Part shown: in pieces, positions 4,765 to 62,345 of the stretch | Layout: every line of letters starts with the position of its first letter | Position numbering within the stretch: the stretch's first letter is position 1 | From: Ureibacillus manganicus DSM 26584 | GTDB lineage: Bacteria; Bacillota; Bacilli; Bacillales_A; Planococcaceae | DNA: 64,000 nucleotides | Direction: 5' to 3' | Assembly: GCF_000772945.1 (NCBI RefSeq) | Contig: NZ_JPVN01000011.1 | Coordinates: 1-64,000 of the forward strand | Made by a program: the position numbers and the translations under genes | Notes under the pieces: model-generated | The model's input: the letters and a program-made list of their open reading frames with translations, nothing else | The model's database searches: none | What the model was told of the DNA's origin: nothing

Positions 4765-7338
4765 TTATAGACCGCATTTTAGTTGCGCACCACAGCTTGT
4801 ACAAGTGTTACAACCACCTAATTCTTCGACTGTACCTTGACGACAAACTGGACACGTATTCCCTACTTCAGATCCAATTGTTACATTTGTAGTTTGAAGC
4901 GGAGCAATTGTATCAACTAATACAACTGGTTGCTTTTCTTTTATTTCTTCTTCTTTTAGCTCATCAAATGATAATTGCTCATCATGAGAAGATTCTGCTT
5001 TTAATGTAAGTACTTGTGTATCACGACTTCCATCGACATAAACAGTACCACCTTTTGCGCCACCTTTGTACAAACGTTCGTAAACTTTTTGTACTTGTTC
5101 TACAGTGTAGCCTTTCGGTGCATTAACAGTTTTAGAAATCGATGAATCTACCCAACGTTGGATGACACATTGCACATCAGCATGCGCTTCTGCAGATAAT
5201 TCCATAGAAGATATGAACCAATTTGGTAGATTGTTTTCATCTGCTTCAGGATGACGATCTAAATATTCCCTTACAATTTCAGCCTTTACCTCAATAAACT
5301 TACCTAGGCGGCCTGAACGGTAATAAACGAACGAGAAATAAGGTTCAAGCCCTGTGGCAACTCCAACCATCGTCCCAGTCGATCCTGTGGGAGCAACTGT
5401 TAAAAGATGAGAGTTGCGAATGCCATTTTCAAGTACGCCTTGACGCACGTGTTCTGGCATTTTACTCATATAACCTGTGTTAATGAAAGCTTGTCTTAAA
5501 CGATTTGTTTCTTCCTCCGTTTGACCTTGTAAGAATGGGAAGCTACCACGTTCTTTACCAAGTTCAATAGATGTTTCATAGGCAGTTACTGCAATCGTTT
5601 CAAAGATTTTATCTACAAGTTTGTTACCTTCTTCAGAACCATACTCTTTTTCACAGTAGATTAATAAGTCTGCCAGACCCATAACTCCAAGACCAACACG
5701 ACGTTCCCCTAAAGCTTGTTTACGGTTTTCTTCTAAGAAGTAAGGTGTTGCTTCGATAACATTATCTTGCATACGTACGCCCGTACGTACTGTTTCTTTA
5801 AGGGCTTCGTAATCAACTGTTTGTTGATCTTTAATCGCGAATTGTGCTAAGTTTACAGCTGCTAAGTTACATACTGAAAACGGAGCGAGAGGTTGTTCAC
5901 CACATGGATTTGTAGCAACCACTTTTTGCCCGTATGCACGAGCATTTGTCATGTCATTAGCATTATCAATGAAGAAAATACCTGGTTCCGCAGCATATGT
6001 GGCACAAACATTGATCAAATTCCAAAGTTCACGTGCACGAATTGTTCTATATGTGCGAACAGGATACCCAAGTTTTTCCCATTCTCTAACGTCCCCTACT
6101 TCGTGCCATTTTTCATTATATATAGCCATTTCCTCAGGTGTGTAGTTTGCTACATCAGGGAAACGAAGTTCATATTCTTCATCATTTTCTACTGCAGCCA
6201 TAAACTCTTTTGTTAAAGTAACTGAGATATTAGCTCCAGTTAAGAACTCAGAGTTATGAACGCTGTAAGTTCCACCATCACGAAGTTTTTGTTCAGCTTC
6301 TTTTATGATAGCTTCGTTAAAGCCACCCAAGCCAGGAAAGTTCTTATAGTTTACAATACCTTGATACATTGCTTCTTCTTGAGCAGTAAAAGGTTTAAAT
6401 TTTAATTTTTCTTGTGCTAGACGAGTGATTAGCTCTTCATTTGTATTTTCGATTAAATAACGCAAAATACGTGGATTTTGCATTTTCGAAATTATAAATT
6501 CAACAATATCAGGGTGCCAATCTGCCAGCATAATCATTTGAGCTCCGCGTCTAGACCCACCCTGTTCTACAAGATGTGTCAATTTAGCTATGTCATCTAG
6601 CCAAGATACAGAACCGCTTGATTTACCATTTACACCGCGCGCTAACGTGTTACGTGGACGAAGTGTTGAACCGTTCGTACCAACTCCGCCACCACGGCTC
6701 ATGATTTCCATTACTTGCTTACGGTGATCACTAATACCTTCACGACTGTCAGGTACAAATGGCATAACATAACAGTTAAAGAATGTTACATCTGTTTGTG
6801 AACCAGCACCATATAGGACACGACCAGCTGGTACAAATTTCAATGAAACTAATTGTTCATAAAACTTATTGAACCATTTTTCTCGATCTTCTTCGTTTTT
6901 TTCAACAGAAGCAAGTCCTGTGGCATTACGTTTAGCAATTTGTTCATAGTATATTTCTAAAGGTTTTTCAATTACGTCTAGTGAACGTAGAATAACTCCC
7001 GTCTCTTGTTCATTAGGATGATCTAAAACGTGACGATATTCTTCTTCAATTAAAATTTCTGCTTTTTTTGTCTCAATATCAATCGATTGAATATATCCTA
7101 AACCACGTGCTGGAAACTTAGGATCTTCTTTAATCGTTAAAACTACAAAATCTCCAGCTTTTAACGTTTTCTTTTCCGTATCCTTAAAAGAATAACGGTC
7201 AATCATGACTAGTCTTGATACACCTTTGTGTGTAATATGCATATCTGGTGTAATTGGATGGACTTGAGGAAAGTTCTCAATATCTTTGTTTAGTTGATCT
7301 ACGAGGATGGTTGCTTCTTTTGCATCTACCAATACCAT
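4765..7338 (-). CDS. nrdJ: Adenosylcobalamin-dependent ribonucleotide reductase (class II)
   Basis: An 857-residue reductase converting ribonucleotides to deoxyribonucleotides with a B12-generated thiyl radical, independent of oxygen. Visible features are Cys189 in FFNCYVMP; Cys479 in the ATNPCGEQPL loop, with Asn, Cys and Glu as in the class II active site; the APTGSTGTMVGVATG phosphate loop; and a C-terminal tail with CPVCRQG and CTSCGAQLKCGL motifs that shuttle electrons or bind metal. The ATG follows GGGAGG. It is a single gene, convergent with the TauE exporter, behind NrdR boxes. A B12-riboswitch-controlled uptake module occurs later in the window near 59 kb. Confidence 0.96.
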   Translation of the reverse strand: MVLVDAKEATILVDQLNKDIENFPQVHPITPDMHITHKGVSRLVMIDRYSFKDTEKKTLKAGDFVVLTIKEDPKFPARGLGYIQSIDIETKKAEILIEEEYRHVLDHPNEQETGVILRSLDVIEKPLEIYYEQIAKRNATGLASVEKNEEDREKWFNKFYEQLVSLKFVPAGRVLYGAGSQTDVTFFNCYVMPFVPDSREGISDHRKQVMEIMSRGGGVGTNGSTLRPRNTLARGVNGKSSGSVSWLDDIAKLTHLVEQGGSRRGAQMIMLADWHPDIVEFIISKMQNPRILRYLIENTNEELITRLAQEKLKFKPFTAQEEAMYQGIVNYKNFPGLGGFNEAIIKEAEQKLRDGGTYSVHNSEFLTGANISVTLTKEFMAAVENDEEYELRFPDVANYTPEEMAIYNEKWHEVGDVREWEKLGYPVRTYRTIRARELWNLINVCATYAAEPGIFFIDNANDMTNARAYGQKVVATNPCGEQPLAPFSVCNLAAVNLAQFAIKDQQTVDYEALKETVRTGVRMQDNVIEATPYFLEENRKQALGERRVGLGVMGLADLLIYCEKEYGSEEGNKLVDKIFETIAVTAYETSIELGKERGSFPFLQGQTEEETNRLRQAFINTGYMSKMPEHVRQGVLENGIRNSHLLTVAPTGSTGTMVGVATGLEPYFSFVYYRSGRLGKFIEVKAEIVREYLDRHPEADENNLPNWFISSMELSAEAHADVQCVIQRWVDSSISKTVNAPKGYTVEQVQKVYERLYKGGAKGGTVYVDGSRDTQVLTLKAESSHDEQLSFDELKEEEIKEKQPVVLVDTIAPLQTTNVTIGSEVGNTCPVCRQGTVEELGGCNTCTSCGAQLKCGL

Positions 7339-13179: not shown

Positions 13180-13495
13180 CTTGCACCTGAAAGTTACACC
13201 TATTCCTATGAGATAAATTAGGTTTATATAGGCTTTCCTCGTTGGTGGCTGTTATGTTGATTGATAACAATAATCAATAATATTATAATAACAGCGCTCT
13301 CCAGAGACGCGTCCTGTACGAGTCTTTTTGCCTGAGAGATTCATAGCTAAACTACTTGCTCCTTCGGCGACGTTTTTTTATCTTCACTACAAATATGTAC
13401 CCATTAATTACTAAGAACATTCTCTTAACATTAAGGGATTCGTAGGATGCATTATGCTTAGCATAACTTGTTCACGTTCTCTCCACGTACATTCA
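13180..13495 (-). promoter_or_regulatory. Tandem glycine riboswitch (gcvT leader)
   Basis: Two aptamers in series on the minus strand. Aptamer 1 has GGAGAG (13479-13484) pairing with CTCTC in GAATCTCTCAGGC (13330-13342), and the invariant GCCGAAGGAGCAAG (13356-13370). The linker and aptamer 2 have CTCTGGAGAG (near 13300), a CTGTTAT/ATAACAG arm, GCCACCAACGAGG and CTTTCAGGTGCAAGGACAG. These match the B. subtilis gcvT glycine riboswitch closely. The P3 arm of aptamer 1 is unusually long, about 100 bases (13373-13472). The interval from 13496 to the end of aroK holds only AT-rich sequence, presumably the promoter. Confidence 0.93.
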
Positions 13496-30008: not shown

Positions 30009-30225
30009 AGGCTTTCCATCACAAAAAGGACGGATAAGCCGTGGTGCCACCTTTATTGACTAAAACAAAATTATCTGTACGTAACTGTCTTAGTCCACTC
30101 TACTTGTTATAACGTAACTATACGCTAGTACCTACTATAATTTCAGTACCAGTAGCTAGAAAGCCCATTCATATTATGTCATGTACTAGCTCCCACCTTA
30201 TGCTAGCTCTCTGAAACACTTCATA
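30009..30225 (-). promoter_or_regulatory. T-box riboswitch, tRNA-Trp specific
   Basis: On the minus strand the T-box AAGGTGGCACCACGG (30039-30053) is followed by a terminator hairpin GGCTT...AAGCC (30009-30042) and T7. Stem I upstream contains the specifier UGG at 30165-30167 in GAATGGGCTTT, reading Trp. Uncharged tRNA-Trp should stabilise the antiterminator and turn on trpE-trpG. The specifier identity is read directly. The stem boundaries are approximate. Confidence 0.92.
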
Positions 30226-30334
30226 ATATTACTTTTTTTCATCATCGCTTTTTAAATATACAATTATAAATATTTTAAACGATATAGATTAACTATTCAA
30301 ATAAATTTGAAAGTTAAGCCGGAAATTACGAAAA

Positions 30335-57932: not shown

Positions 57933-58254
57933 CAGGCTGAGACATAAGTAAAAAGGTACAATCATTCAAATTGGGATTGTACCTTTTTGATATAGCGACG
58001 TTCGTTTCTGATGCATGCTTCGCGCATCCAGGGGAAGCCATGAGCCTCCGGGAGCTAAAGCTCTCCGGGGTCTCATGACTGCTTCTACGTCCTGCAGGAT
58101 AAGGAATGCTTCCTTGAAATATCATCGCAACGAGAAAATACTTTAGTATTTTCGAGAGAGTCTTCGCATGCCTCGGAAGCGACGACTTTCTAATCTAGCG
58201 TTAGCAGATTTTTATTATACATAATACTGACTTTTGGTTGAAAGTTATCTTTTT
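57933..58254 (+). repeat. Interspersed structured repeat, copy B
   Basis: 322 bp homologous to 27639-27902 in the same orientation. Terminator hairpin GGTACAAT/ATTGTACC then T5 (57955-57988), the long stem GATGCATGC/GCATGC, the GC-rich arm with CCGGGAGCT/AGCTCTCCGG, and the same TTGGTTGAAAGTTATC end. Compared with copy A it has about 58 extra bases after CCTGCAGGA that form two hairpins, AAGGAA/TTCCTT and GAAAATACT/AGTATTTTC. It runs into the stop codon of the ECF gene. Confidence 0.85.
57955..57988 (+). terminator. Terminator inside repeat copy B
   Basis: Arms GGTACAAT and ATTGTACC followed by TTTTT, equivalent to the hairpin of copy A. Confidence 0.85.
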
Positions 58255-58804
58255 ATCTAAATAACTTTTTCTTTTCTTTTTCCATAATTTTAATAATAAT
58301 TGGGCCGAGTACTAAAAAGAAAAAGAAATTTCCTATTGCATGATAGATATCGAATGGTATGCCCGCTAAATAGTATGCAACGAACATGAGTCCATCACCT
58401 ATAAACAGCATATTTAAAGAGACCATTAAGCCAAAGAACATCCCCATCAGTGCAGAATACAATGCAAGGATGAAAAATGGAATCTTTTTGTATATCTTAC
58501 CTATCAACCCTGAAACAACGGCTACAGAGCCCCAAGCAATCAACTGCATAATCAAGAATGGTCCAAATCCTAAAACAAGATTAGAGCCAAACACTGTAAT
58601 TATCGCTAAAGTTAAGCCAACTTTTATGCCAAAGACAAGCGATACGCAGATAATTATGGTTGTAGATGGTTGCACATTCGGAATACCAACTGTATATATT
58701 CTACCAACAATACTTAATGCTGCAAGACAAGCGATAATTGTCATAACTCGAGTAGATTGTCTAATTTGCATTGTCGAACGTAATTGAAGATTTTTATCTT
58801 CCAA
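58253..58804 (-). CDS. ECF transporter S component, candidate cobalamin uptake
   Basis: A 183-residue membrane protein with five or six helices. LAALSIVGRIYTVGIPNVQP near the N-terminus is like the CbrT-type S components described for B12. An S component binds the vitamin and needs the shared EcfA/EcfT energising module, which is not in the window. The TTG start has GAGGTG upstream. Its gene follows the DUF4430 lipoprotein gene, which sits behind a cobalamin riboswitch; the cobalamin assignment is inference from that context and motif likeness. Confidence 0.75.
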   Translation of the reverse strand: MEDKNLQLRSTMQIRQSTRVMTIIACLAALSIVGRIYTVGIPNVQPSTTIIICVSLVFGIKVGLTLAIITVFGSNLVLGFGPFLIMQLIAWGSVAVVSGLIGKIYKKIPFFILALYSALMGMFFGLMVSLNMLFIGDGLMFVAYYLAGIPFDIYHAIGNFFFFLVLGPIIIKIMEKEKKKLFR

Positions 58805-58993
58805 TTTTTCACCTCATTCAAATACGCCAAAACGTATTTACACCTGTCACTTCTCATTCGAATCAGTAAAAAATGTGTTAGCTAAATTGTTTCGAGCATA
58901 CTAAATCCTTAAGGAAATTTATATCGAGAATGTCATTCTGACGAAAAGCAGCTATCTTTTATTCAACTATCCTCTATTATGTGTGGCTAAATA

Positions 58994-59407
58994 TTAATAA
59001 GATGTTAACTCCCAAGTGATTTTATCGCCATCTTTAAGGATAACTTCCGCAGCGCCTACCATTGACATTTCACCATTTACTGATAATGCCCAGTAAGTTT
59101 TCGTTTCTTCCCCTGCTTCTACCCCGTTAATTGTAGTGACAAAACCGCCTTCTTCAATAGCGTTTAACTCTCTAACTGTTACTTCTAGCGCATTTTCCCC
59201 TTCTGTAAATGCAGCTTCTTTTACATCTGATTTACCATCATTAATAACTTCAAGTTCAACTGACAGTTGCTCTACGTTCGATTCAGTTGTTTCATTTGTT
59301 GTTTGTTCTGCTGGTTTTACTTCTTCCTGTGCTCCATTTGAACTACAGCCAAATAATGCAATAACGACTAACATTAATAAAGATATTCTTTGTAATAATT
59401 GTTTCAT
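58994..59407 (-). CDS. DUF4430 (transcobalamin-like) lipoprotein
   Basis: A 137-residue lipoprotein. Signal peptide LLMLVVIALFGCSS with Cys21 lipobox, a Glu/Thr-rich linker, then a DUF4430 domain (55-137): TYWALSVNGEMSMVGAAEV and DKITWELTSY. DUF4430 resembles the C-terminal domain of intrinsic factor/transcobalamin (family knowledge). It lies directly downstream of a B12 riboswitch and upstream of an ECF S component, so a role in external cobalamin capture is likely (inference). Confidence 0.82.
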   Translation of the reverse strand: MKQLLQRISLLMLVVIALFGCSSNGAQEEVKPAEQTTNETTESNVEQLSVELEVINDGKSDVKEAAFTEGENALEVTVRELNAIEEGGFVTTINGVEAGEETKTYWALSVNGEMSMVGAAEVILKDGDKITWELTSY

Positions 59408-59595
59408 TTATATCTCTCCTCAAGTGTTCTATAAATTACTATGTAGCAAAAATCGTTAGTTCCACTTCCCCCAATACTAAAGTAATAAGTGAATGGTGCC
59501 TCTTGGATGGAATCTAGATAGATTAAGATGTCCGTTTTATTTAAGTGATGACTTACTGTTTCGAGTTTTTAAAAATACTAGAGACTAAAAACGCA

Positions 59596-59870
59596 AAATA
59601 AAAAGCCACCCAAGAATGGATGGCAAAAGAACAAGTTTCAACACAAATAATGTGTGATTTAAGCATTTCGCCGTACATTCTCTTTAATTCCGAAGAGGTT
59701 TGTTACGATCAGAAAAAGACAGGTCTCCTGGCTTGTGCATTTGCGTTTTGAAGCCTTCCCATCATTAGACAGTGGCATATTCCAAAACTAGCACTTACAG
59801 TTGCGGATACAGCTTCGGTCTCTAACCGAATTCCCAATTAAGCATTAAGCGTCTTCTTCCTGCATGATTA
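59596..59870 (-). promoter_or_regulatory. Cobalamin riboswitch with terminator
   Basis: On the minus strand the aptamer shows GGGAATTCGGT, CCGAAGCTGTATCCGCAACTG, TGCCACTG, TGGGAAGGC, and the B12 box AGCCAGGAGACCTGTC (59717-59733), in the right order. A terminator hairpin GCCATCC/GGGTGGC at 59605-59624 with T-rich tail follows. B12 binding should favour termination and turn the downstream DUF4430 and S-component genes off. 5' boundary approximate. Confidence 0.94.
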
Positions 59871-59947
59871 TTCACTTGACTATCAATTTATCATACTATT
59901 CATAAAAATCATAGTGAAATTTAAAGTTTTAGTAATTTCATGAAACA

Positions 59948-60358
59948 CTAAGCGCAATTTGAACACTTTCCGTAAATTTCAAACTTATGCGATTGGATTT
60001 CATATCCTGGTAATTTTTCAGTGAGCATTTCCATAGGACATACTTCAATTTCTCTCACATTCCCACATTCCATACATATAAAATGATGATGGTGGTGGTC
60101 TGATTCACATTGCATACGGAAGTTTCGTTCTCCATTTAACTCAGTTTCTTCTAAAATACCTAGCTCTACAAAAGTAGAAAGATTGCGATAGATTGTATCG
60201 AAGCTCATCCCAGGAAACTCCAACTTCAAAACATTTAGTAAGTCACGTGCTGTTAAATACTTTTCCGTCTCCTCAAACATATTTAAGATTAGTTCGCGTT
60301 TGTCTGTTTTTTTATAGCCGTTTTCTTTTAATATTTCCCATGCTCGTGTAATATTCAC
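59948..60358 (-). CDS. zur: Zinc uptake repressor Zur (Fur family)
   Basis: A 136-residue Fur-family repressor: winged helix [15 protein letters not shown] and [18 protein letters not shown], metal-site [15 protein letters not shown], and a structural zinc site CMEC...CSNCA. Zn-bound dimer represses zinc uptake genes. Its GTG overlaps the znuB stop (GTGA), so it is in the znu operon and probably autoregulated. In B. subtilis zur is beside yqfW. Confidence 0.93.
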
Positions 60359-61212
60359 TGTTCTATCCCCTTTCTACTAAAATTCAATACCAGTTTTTTT
60401 ATAGAAATAACTGCGAATAAAATGATAATCGATGTTACTACAATGGTACCTCCAGGGGCTAAATTTAAATAGAAAGCTCCCACTAGTCCAATAATGACAG
60501 CAGTTTCCCCGAAAATTATAGAAAATAGTATTGTTTCTTTAAATCCTTTGGCAAAACGCATAGCTGTTGCAACTGGTAATGTAATAAGCGAGGAAACTAG
60601 TAAAATACCTACGATTCGCATACTTGCTGCAATGACTAATGCAACGACTATCATAAATAATAAGTGAATCGACCTAGAGGGTAATCCTGTGGCTTTTGCA
60701 TATTCTTCGTCAAAGGATAAAACAAACATCTCTTTAAAAAATAACGATAAAAATATAATGACAACTAATGCAATTAGGATGACTACTACTAAATCCTGCC
60801 TTGACACGGCAGAAACAGAACCAAATAAATAACTCATTAAATCTGTACTAAAACCACTTGCTAGAGATATAAAAATTGCTGATAATCCAATTCCCGCTGA
60901 CATAATTATAGGTATAGCTAATTCTTCATAATGTTTATACAATCTTCGTAATCGTTCTATTAATACAGAACCCCCAACAGACGCAACAATCCCAAGGTAA
61001 ATTGGATTAAGCAAAGCTAAGCTTGCAAATGTTTGACTTAAATAAAGGCTTCCCGCAATTCCTGCAAGAGTCACATGTGACAAAGCATCTGCAATTAAAG
61101 ACATACGACGTACGACAATGAAAACTCCTAATAACGGCGCAATAGCACCAATAATTAATCCAGAGAGAAAGGCATTTTGTAAAAATTCATAGTTTAATAT
61201 AGCTTCGATCAA
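60355..61212 (-). CDS. znuB: Zinc ABC transporter permease ZnuB
   Basis: A 285-residue membrane permease of the ABC-3 family with eight or so helices ([36 protein letters not shown] near the start). TTG start with AAGGAGAGAAGG upstream, giving [10 protein letters not shown]. Passes zinc across the membrane with ZnuC. The binding protein ZnuA is not in the window. Confidence 0.93.
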
Positions 61213-61226
61213 TGTCCTTCTCTCCT

Positions 61227-61973
61227 TTAATGAATTTTTCGAACCGAATGTCCGTACCAATCATTTAACTGCTCATTTGAAATGGCATCAAAGTCTTTTT
61301 TATATCCATGAAAATGAATCGTTTGATTTAAACAAGCAACGTGACTAATACGATTAGAAACCGTATCAACATCATGTGTGACTAAAATAATTGTCTTTTT
61401 TTGTTCCTCGTTCAATCTCACTAACATATCATAAAATGATTGAACATTTTCATGATCAATACCTACTGTCGGCTCATCTAAAATTAGTAACTTTGGTTCA
61501 GCAATTAATGCTCGAGCGATAAAAACTCGTTGTTGTTGACCGCCAGATAATTGACCGATATTACGTGATAAGTAATCTTCCATACCAACAGATTTTAATG
61601 CTTCAATAACTAATTCCTTAGAATTTTTTGGCATTCGCTTAAATAAACCAACTTTTTTAGTTAAGCCACTTTTTACAACTTCTTCTACTGTTGCAGGGAA
61701 ACTTGAGTTAAATGCGTTTGATTTTTGTGAAACATACCCAATCCATTCACGATTGACAAATGAATTCGTTGATACTCCAAACAAATTAACTTCACCTGTA
61801 AGAGGTTTTTCAATTCCTAATATAAGCTTTAATAATGTAGATTTTCCTGATCCATTTGGACCGAGCAACGCTAAAAAATCACCTTCAGAAACACTGAAGG
61901 ATATATTATGTAATACTTTTGTATGTTCATATTGAAACGAGACATTTTTCAATTCTATTAATGATTTGGTCAT
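61227..61973 (-). CDS. znuC: Zinc ABC transporter ATPase ZnuC
   Basis: A 248-residue ATPase with Walker A GPNGSGKSTLLKLILG, Q-loop VSQKSN, signature [15 protein letters not shown] and Walker B LLILDEPTVGID, H-loop THDVD. The ATG with AGAAAGAAG upstream is chosen; the longer frame runs into the GC-rich island and has no family similarity. First gene of znuC-znuB-zur, behind a Zur box. Confidence 0.94.
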   Translation of the reverse strand: MTKSLIELKNVSFQYEHTKVLHNISFSVSEGDFLALLGPNGSGKSTLLKLILGIEKPLTGEVNLFGVSTNSFVNREWIGYVSQKSNAFNSSFPATVEEVVKSGLTKKVGLFKRMPKNSKELVIEALKSVGMEDYLSRNIGQLSGGQQQRVFIARALIAEPKLLILDEPTVGIDHENVQSFYDMLVRLNEEQKKTIILVTHDVDTVSNRISHVACLNQTIHFHGYKKDFDAISNEQLNDWYGHSVRKIH

Positions 61974-61998
61974 AATTTCGCTTCTTTCTAATTCTAAT

Positions 61999-62013
61999 TC
62001 ATAATCATTACGA
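61999..62013 (-). promoter_or_regulatory. Zur operator upstream of znuC
   Basis: TCATAATCATTACGA matches the Zur palindrome consensus TCGTAATNATTACGA with one mismatch. It lies 26 bases upstream of the znuC ATG, near a -35/-10 pair (TTACAA and TTATGA, 17-base spacer). Zinc-loaded Zur should repress the operon. Confidence 0.78.
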
Positions 62014-62059
62014 TTTACATTTTGTAAGTATACGTGTTTCTTTTTCGTTTGTAAAGAAA

Positions 62060-62345
62060 TCCATCTTAATGAGAAAAGCGGAGAACGCCTGCTCAGCTCC
62101 GCGTCGGTGAAAACGCAACGTCGTGCTCCTGTGCTGCAGTAGCTGCTCGTCGCAAAATGCTTTTGTTGCATCTCCGACATGACCAACGGCAGTCAAAAGC
62201 GCAACGTCCTGTTGCATTGACTGCATGACCGACGTCGTGTCGGCCCTCGTGTTAACCTCTGTCGCACTACCGGCACTCGTACATCCATGTACTTCGGAGA
62301 AACCGACAAAATGGCGCTCTTTGCCCTTACAGGCGGTTTTTAAGT
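62060..62345. repeat. GC-rich multi-hairpin island, probable interspersed repeat
   Basis: About 285 bases clearly richer in G+C than the surroundings with at least four hairpins: GCGGAG/CTCCGC (62078-62102), GTCGG/CCGAC (62103-62178), AGTCAA/TTGACT enclosing GCAAC/GTTGC (62191-62222) and CCGAC/GTCGG (62229-62243). The motif GCAACGTC recurs twice. No RBS or coding frame is convincing on either strand. It lies between the divergent znuC and yqfT promoters. Confidence 0.65.

Follow-up and report, generated by a model that had tools for sequence, protein, structure and literature searches.

A DUF4430 lipoprotein and a CbrT-like S component under a cobalamin riboswitch in Ureibacillus manganicus: a probable corrinoid capture and import module

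The locus considered here raises the question of whether a lipoprotein on the surface of a Gram-positive bacterium may catch vitamin B12 and pass it to an ECF transporter. It lies in a 64,000-nt window of Ureibacillus manganicus DSM 26584 (positions 1 to 64,000 of contig NZ_JPVN01000011.1, the whole stretch of DNA that was analysed), where an earlier note had proposed that a cobalamin riboswitch, a DUF4430 lipoprotein and an ECF S component together form a cobalamin capture module. So far, descriptions of B12 uptake by ECF transporters in Gram-positives include no capture step outside the cell. If DUF4430 lipoproteins do bind B12, around one third of the sampled Bacilli (DUF4430 is present in 141 of 399 genomes) would capture the vitamin with a protein related to the B12 carriers of humans.

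All parts of the locus are encoded on the minus strand and are transcribed in the order riboswitch, terminator, DUF4430 lipoprotein gene, spacer, S component gene. The cobalamin riboswitch aptamer (RF00174) occupies positions 59701-59871 and was matched by Infernal over the full length of the model (positions 1-189), scoring 90.4 bits where the cut-off is 31.5 (E=4.6e-21). An intrinsic terminator stem-loop follows at 59624-59605, consists of GCCATCCATTCTTGGGTGGC and a T run, and probably serves as the expression platform; the 8-pair stem is followed by TTTTTATTTT, and the T run extends to about 59595. As terminator-like sites in this region are no commoner than in shuffled sequences, the terminator call rests on position and conservation. 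The terminator is kept across three orthologous leaders, and the aptamer, the kissing-loop region and the terminator are all kept in two orthologous Ureibacillus loci (aptamer in L005 and L006). Based on the usual behaviour of riboswitch-terminator leaders, B12 would be expected to repress the genes downstream.

The lipoprotein gene (58994-59407, 137 aa, Pfam DUF4430 E=8e-19) and the S component gene (58253-58804, 183 aa, TTG start) lie on the same strand, separated by an intergenic spacer of 189 nt (58805-58993) that measures 12 nt in the two orthologous Ureibacillus loci. Rfam, ORF and Pfam matches bear out the coordinates and the order that had been claimed for riboswitch, lipoprotein and S component. 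The spacer is present as a single copy in the host genome, which rules out a repeated insertion, and it contains a small hairpin (AAATACG/CGTATTT) directly before the S component ribosome-binding site. Upstream of the riboswitch, at 59948-62186 on the minus strand, sits a zinc-uptake-type unit comprising a Fur-family regulator, an ABC-3 metal permease and an ABC ATPase, which also adjoins the module in the orthologous loci. Membership of the lipoprotein and the S component in this unit was ruled out, as the riboswitch leader lies in between.

To which vitamin does the S component belong? A phmmer search of the PDB returned 6fnp_A (E=2e-25) as the only S component at E<=1, and a profile built from 13 relatives of the S component found 6fnp_A as its sole match (E=1e-34). 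This entry, whose own label reads merely 'Membrane protein', we take to be the ECF-CbrT structure of PMC5997447. CbrT is therefore the best specific match, as the earlier note had supposed, and the S component of no other vitamin matches better. The Pfam models for riboflavin and for generic ECF S components both fell just below cut-off; a riboflavin S component was ruled out on these grounds, CbrT being the only specific sequence match. A structural model of the protein (pLDDT 77, pTM 0.71), built from 4 sequences, shows the six-helix S-component fold, and its top Foldseek rows (probability up to 1.00, E>0.05) were S components for riboflavin, thiamin, pantothenate, biotin and folate. Given these poor E-values, we use the model as supporting evidence only.

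The first helix of the S component carries an A25-x3-A29 motif, in which both A25 and A29 are nearly invariant among the 13 relatives. In S components, the AxxxA motif serves docking on EcfT. The host genome contains a single CbiQ/EcfT-family protein, inside an ecfA1-ecfA2-ecfT-truA cluster, and since this is the only EcfT available the S component most likely uses the shared (group II) EcfA1-EcfA2-EcfT module. CbrT from L. delbrueckii has an affinity of about 9 nM for cyanocobalamin and about 36 nM for cobinamide, and it supports cobalamin uptake powered by ATP (PMC5997447). We consider it very likely that the Ureibacillus S component imports corrinoids as well.

The lipobox of the DUF4430 lipoprotein reads L18-F19-G20-C21, in agreement with the Cys21 previously assigned, and 23 of 24 relatives have the cysteine in the same column. 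Pfam finds DUF4430 only, with no alpha/alpha-toroid domain in the 137-aa protein, and a periplasmic binding protein domain of the BtuF type was not found with Pfam or NCBIfam. The earlier note had likened DUF4430 to the C-terminal domain of intrinsic factor and transcobalamin, and profile searches show that this likeness is one of homology. As a single sequence, the protein matched haptocorrin weakly in the PDB (E=0.054). A profile built from 24 small DUF4430 lipoproteins of diverse Bacilli matched human haptocorrin (4kki) at E=5.4e-6 over residues 332-432, which make up its entire C-terminal beta domain; the match to intrinsic factor was weak (E=0.096). The same profile matched the solved bacterial protein 3u7z at E=1.3e-6; this is the nearest full-length solved relative, and its depositors labelled it a 'putative metal binding protein'.

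Structural modeling of the DUF4430 domain with AlphaFold2 from a 3-row alignment gave a poor result (pLDDT 48, pTM 0.34), for which Foldseek and VIA-align returned no meaningful match. The missing match of this unusable model to the transcobalamin fold does not count against the homology. The order strand-strand-helix-strand-strand-strand predicted in this low-confidence model (pLDDT 48) agrees with the published description of the beta domain. Judged by its sequence, the mature lipoprotein appears to be a transcobalamin-type beta domain. The homology to transcobalamin, haptocorrin and intrinsic factor covers the whole of that domain; the vertebrate carriers differ in having an alpha domain, whereas the Ureibacillus protein has none and is lipid-anchored and bacterial.

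What is known of the vertebrate carriers fits a capture role for such a domain. In these carriers cobalamin attaches to the beta domain first, and B12 transport proteins made of the beta domain only exist in some organisms (PMC11107200). The human transcobalamin beta domain alone binds cobalamin in crystals, and the two halves of the carriers join only with cobalamin between them (PMC5599065). We think it probable that the lipoprotein captures corrinoid as part of import by the S component, while a direct hand-off from the lipoprotein to CbrT, which we favour with less assurance, seems somewhat likelier than its absence.

The association of DUF4430 with B12 genes extends well beyond this locus. 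One DUF4430 genome from each of 35 genera was searched for cobalamin riboswitches, and 26 of these genomes contained at least one (G271 among them with a match just below the curated cut-off). In 25 of the 26 genera a riboswitch lies upstream of the DUF4430 gene, on the same strand and within 6 kb, against 0.06 expected by chance placement with uniform riboswitch positions and genera taken as independent. Close inspection of 20 loci, a non-random sample picked for small lipoproteins and for missing riboswitches, found a CbrT-like gene in the DUF4430 cluster of 18, as the immediate neighbour in 17. The combination of DUF4430, S component and B12 riboswitch therefore recurs across the Bacilli, and the B12 link of DUF4430 is not local chance.

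Where the riboswitch is weak or missing, the neighbours still concern B12. A locus without a riboswitch (L110) has the order rtpR (TIGR02505)-S component-DUF4430-pduO, and one with a weak riboswitch (L114) has pduO-DUF4430-S component. Plasmids of Enterococcus and Lactococcus, again without a riboswitch, carry nrdJ-pduO-DUF4430 together with a divergent S component: nrdJ and DUF4430 are found in L008, L009 and L010, and pduO and the divergent S-component gene in L008 and L010. On these plasmids a B12-dependent reductase travels with its own uptake genes. As a separate observation, a Clostridia MAG (L007:2929-6570) contains metH, then a 150-aa lipoprotein without a Pfam match, then an S component; this lipoprotein is perhaps a diverged or a different B12 capture protein.

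The proposal itself can already be found in annotation and in print. The L. delbrueckii cluster nrdJ-cbrS-cbrT-pduO includes cbrS, a partner gene beside cbrT that was named without a function (PMC5997447). The homologous cluster rtpR-S component-DUF4430-pduO in L110 makes it probable that cbrS corresponds to this DUF4430 gene. The L. delbrueckii system resembles ours in that a partner gene adjoins that of a CbrT-like S component, and in its shared EcfAA'T and B12 context; it differs in being clustered with nrdJ and pduO, whereas the Ureibacillus pair is not, and stands under a cobalamin riboswitch. In L. rhamnosus, a DUF4430 protein beside rtpR was reported with its function called unknown, and the same paper has an entry 'Additional lipoprotein component of putative cobalamin ECF transporter' (PMC9963975); on our own reading the two are the same protein. 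It shares the lipoprotein annotation and the B12 gene context with the Ureibacillus protein but adjoins rtpR, whereas the latter adjoins cbrT under a riboswitch. An Enterococcus DUF4430 protein is annotated 'cobalamin ECF transporter'.

Thus the idea of capture by a DUF4430 protein paired with an S component is supported by homology, the CbrT match and recurrence, but its novelty does not stand. The pair is a further example of a widespread, already annotated capture module, whose function we infer with good support. Our literature search found no test of binding or hand-off by DUF4430 proteins; earlier reports of the association at the level of regulons may exist. Surface lipoproteins of gut Bacteroides also capture B12 for a transporter (PMC6143338), in a Gram-negative outer-membrane system.

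Taken together, the locus probably encodes a corrinoid capture and import module of the CbrS-CbrT type. When cellular B12 is low, transcription would read through the riboswitch and terminator, and the lipoprotein and CbrT would be made. The lipid-anchored DUF4430 protein would then catch cobalamin or other corrinoids at the outer face of the membrane and pass them to CbrT, which would dock through its AxxxA helix on the shared EcfA1-EcfA2-EcfT, and the corrinoid would be imported at the cost of ATP. Once inside, it would be adenosylated and serve NrdJ and further B12-dependent enzymes, and with plentiful B12 the riboswitch would switch the lipoprotein and CbrT genes off. The lipoprotein is not strictly needed for transport as such, since ECF-CbrT of L. 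delbrueckii carries cobalamin without an added lipoprotein (PMC5997447), and the presence of BtuFCD in the genome is a further point against this reading. The homology to vertebrate carriers and the near-universal riboswitch linkage make a binding test worthwhile. If DUF4430 lipoproteins bind B12, the way in which ECF transporters are loaded would become testable with small, easily expressed proteins, as would a bacterial origin of intrinsic factor and transcobalamin.

How does this module fit the B12 physiology of the host? The genome has two further cobalamin riboswitches. One host cluster led by a riboswitch has the order btuF-btuC-btuD(CbiS-like domain)-cbiA-cobT-cobA-cobQ; its BtuD-type ATPase (L070:5553-7046, on contig C15 of the host) has a C-terminal domain matching CbiS-type adenosylcobinamide hydrolase. 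A cobalamin riboswitch is also found at L071:9225-9404 (host contig C11), upstream of class Ib nrdI-nrdE and a further gene. The class Ib reductase is the B12-independent counterpart of NrdJ. CbiD was not found in the host genome. The route proposed here had been presented as separate from BtuF-BtuCD. Both involve extracellular capture followed by ATP-driven B12 import, and both are riboswitch-controlled in the host genome, whereas their folds are unrelated and the class of transporter is different. The genome has both, and the module adds to BtuFCD and does not replace it.

The earlier note had also pointed to nrdJ in the same window. The gene is real (4765-7338, minus strand; NF005991 1693.8 bits, TIGR02504 588 bits) but lies about 51 kb away and outside the operon, and at that distance it was ruled out as a member of the module. 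NrdJ is instead a likely consumer of the imported cofactor. The simplest reading is that the host is a corrinoid scavenger with two import systems, which uses NrdJ when B12 is present and then shuts off its B12-independent reductase.

Several other roles for the pair have to be weighed against corrinoid capture. The main rival is that the lipoprotein is not a free carrier but a lid or partner, docking on CbrT only when it is loaded with cobalamin, for example to hasten toppling or to prevent back-release. As the vertebrate halves join only around cobalamin (PMC5599065), a beta domain could also close on cobalamin held by CbrT, and the fact that the lipoprotein and CbrT genes are immediate neighbours in most loci would suit such a partnership. 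However, the beta domain is the first-binding half in the vertebrate proteins (PMC11107200), and the DUF4430 domains of larger relatives are found in secreted S-layer-anchored proteins, off the membrane, where capture fits better, so that a lid seems unlikely to us.

A different possibility concerns the ligand, in that the pair may import another compound of the corrinoid pathway (cobinamide, cobyric acid or a lower-ligand base) and not cobalamin. The host is without a detected CbiD yet has CbiA, CobT, CobA and CobQ and the CbiS-like domain on BtuD, suggesting salvage of incomplete corrinoids, and a transporter, CblT, has been described for alpha-ribazole (PMC5064896). The match of the S component to CbrT speaks against this, as does the fact that relatives adjoin nrdJ/rtpR, pduO and metH, all genes that use or finish cobamides; we regard such a ligand as distinctly improbable, and the proposal partly merges with corrinoid capture because CbrT binds both cobalamin and cobinamide. 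It is hardly credible that the lipoprotein binds a metal or other small ligand, or is a ligand-free surface protein, and is merely co-regulated with B12 genes. The deposition of its relative 3u7z as a putative metal binding protein would point that way, as would the zinc-uptake-type ABC permease and Fur-family regulator just upstream. Those genes, however, lie ahead of the riboswitch and seem to form a unit of their own, a position next to CbrT and a cobalamin riboswitch recurs in many families while the neighbours vary, and the homology of the domain is to B12 carriers.

Corrinoid capture by DUF4430 may also involve larger proteins. Downstream of the riboswitch, several relatives encode secreted proteins of 500-1,968 aa, some of which combine toroid-like segments, DUF4430 and S-layer anchors; the toroid-like segments resemble a prenyltransferase-like alpha/alpha-toroid, below the Pfam cut-off. 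After these large proteins come a DUF4430 lipoprotein of about 300 aa, a dedicated EcfT, a fused EcfAA' and an S component. Loci with this layout are L054, L055, L056, L057, L060, L061, L062, L065 and L066. The pairing of a toroid with a DUF4430-like domain, as in intrinsic factor and transcobalamin, is shared by some of the larger bacterial proteins, which we treat as a lead only, since the toroid match is to a general fold and not specific to B12 carriers. One speculative extension, for which we would claim a small but real chance, is a composite site in which the beta domain binds cobalamin first and CbrT then encloses it from the other side, much as the two domains of intrinsic factor, beta and alpha, enclose it; the larger toroid and DUF4430 proteins would then be the bacterial equivalents of the vertebrate carriers and perhaps their evolutionary origin.

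Elsewhere in the window, further regulatory RNAs were seen: a T-box leader (30023-30254, minus strand), a glycine riboswitch aptamer (13310-13396, minus strand) that precedes glycine cleavage genes, and a Bacillaceae-1 small RNA (62178-62243, plus strand).
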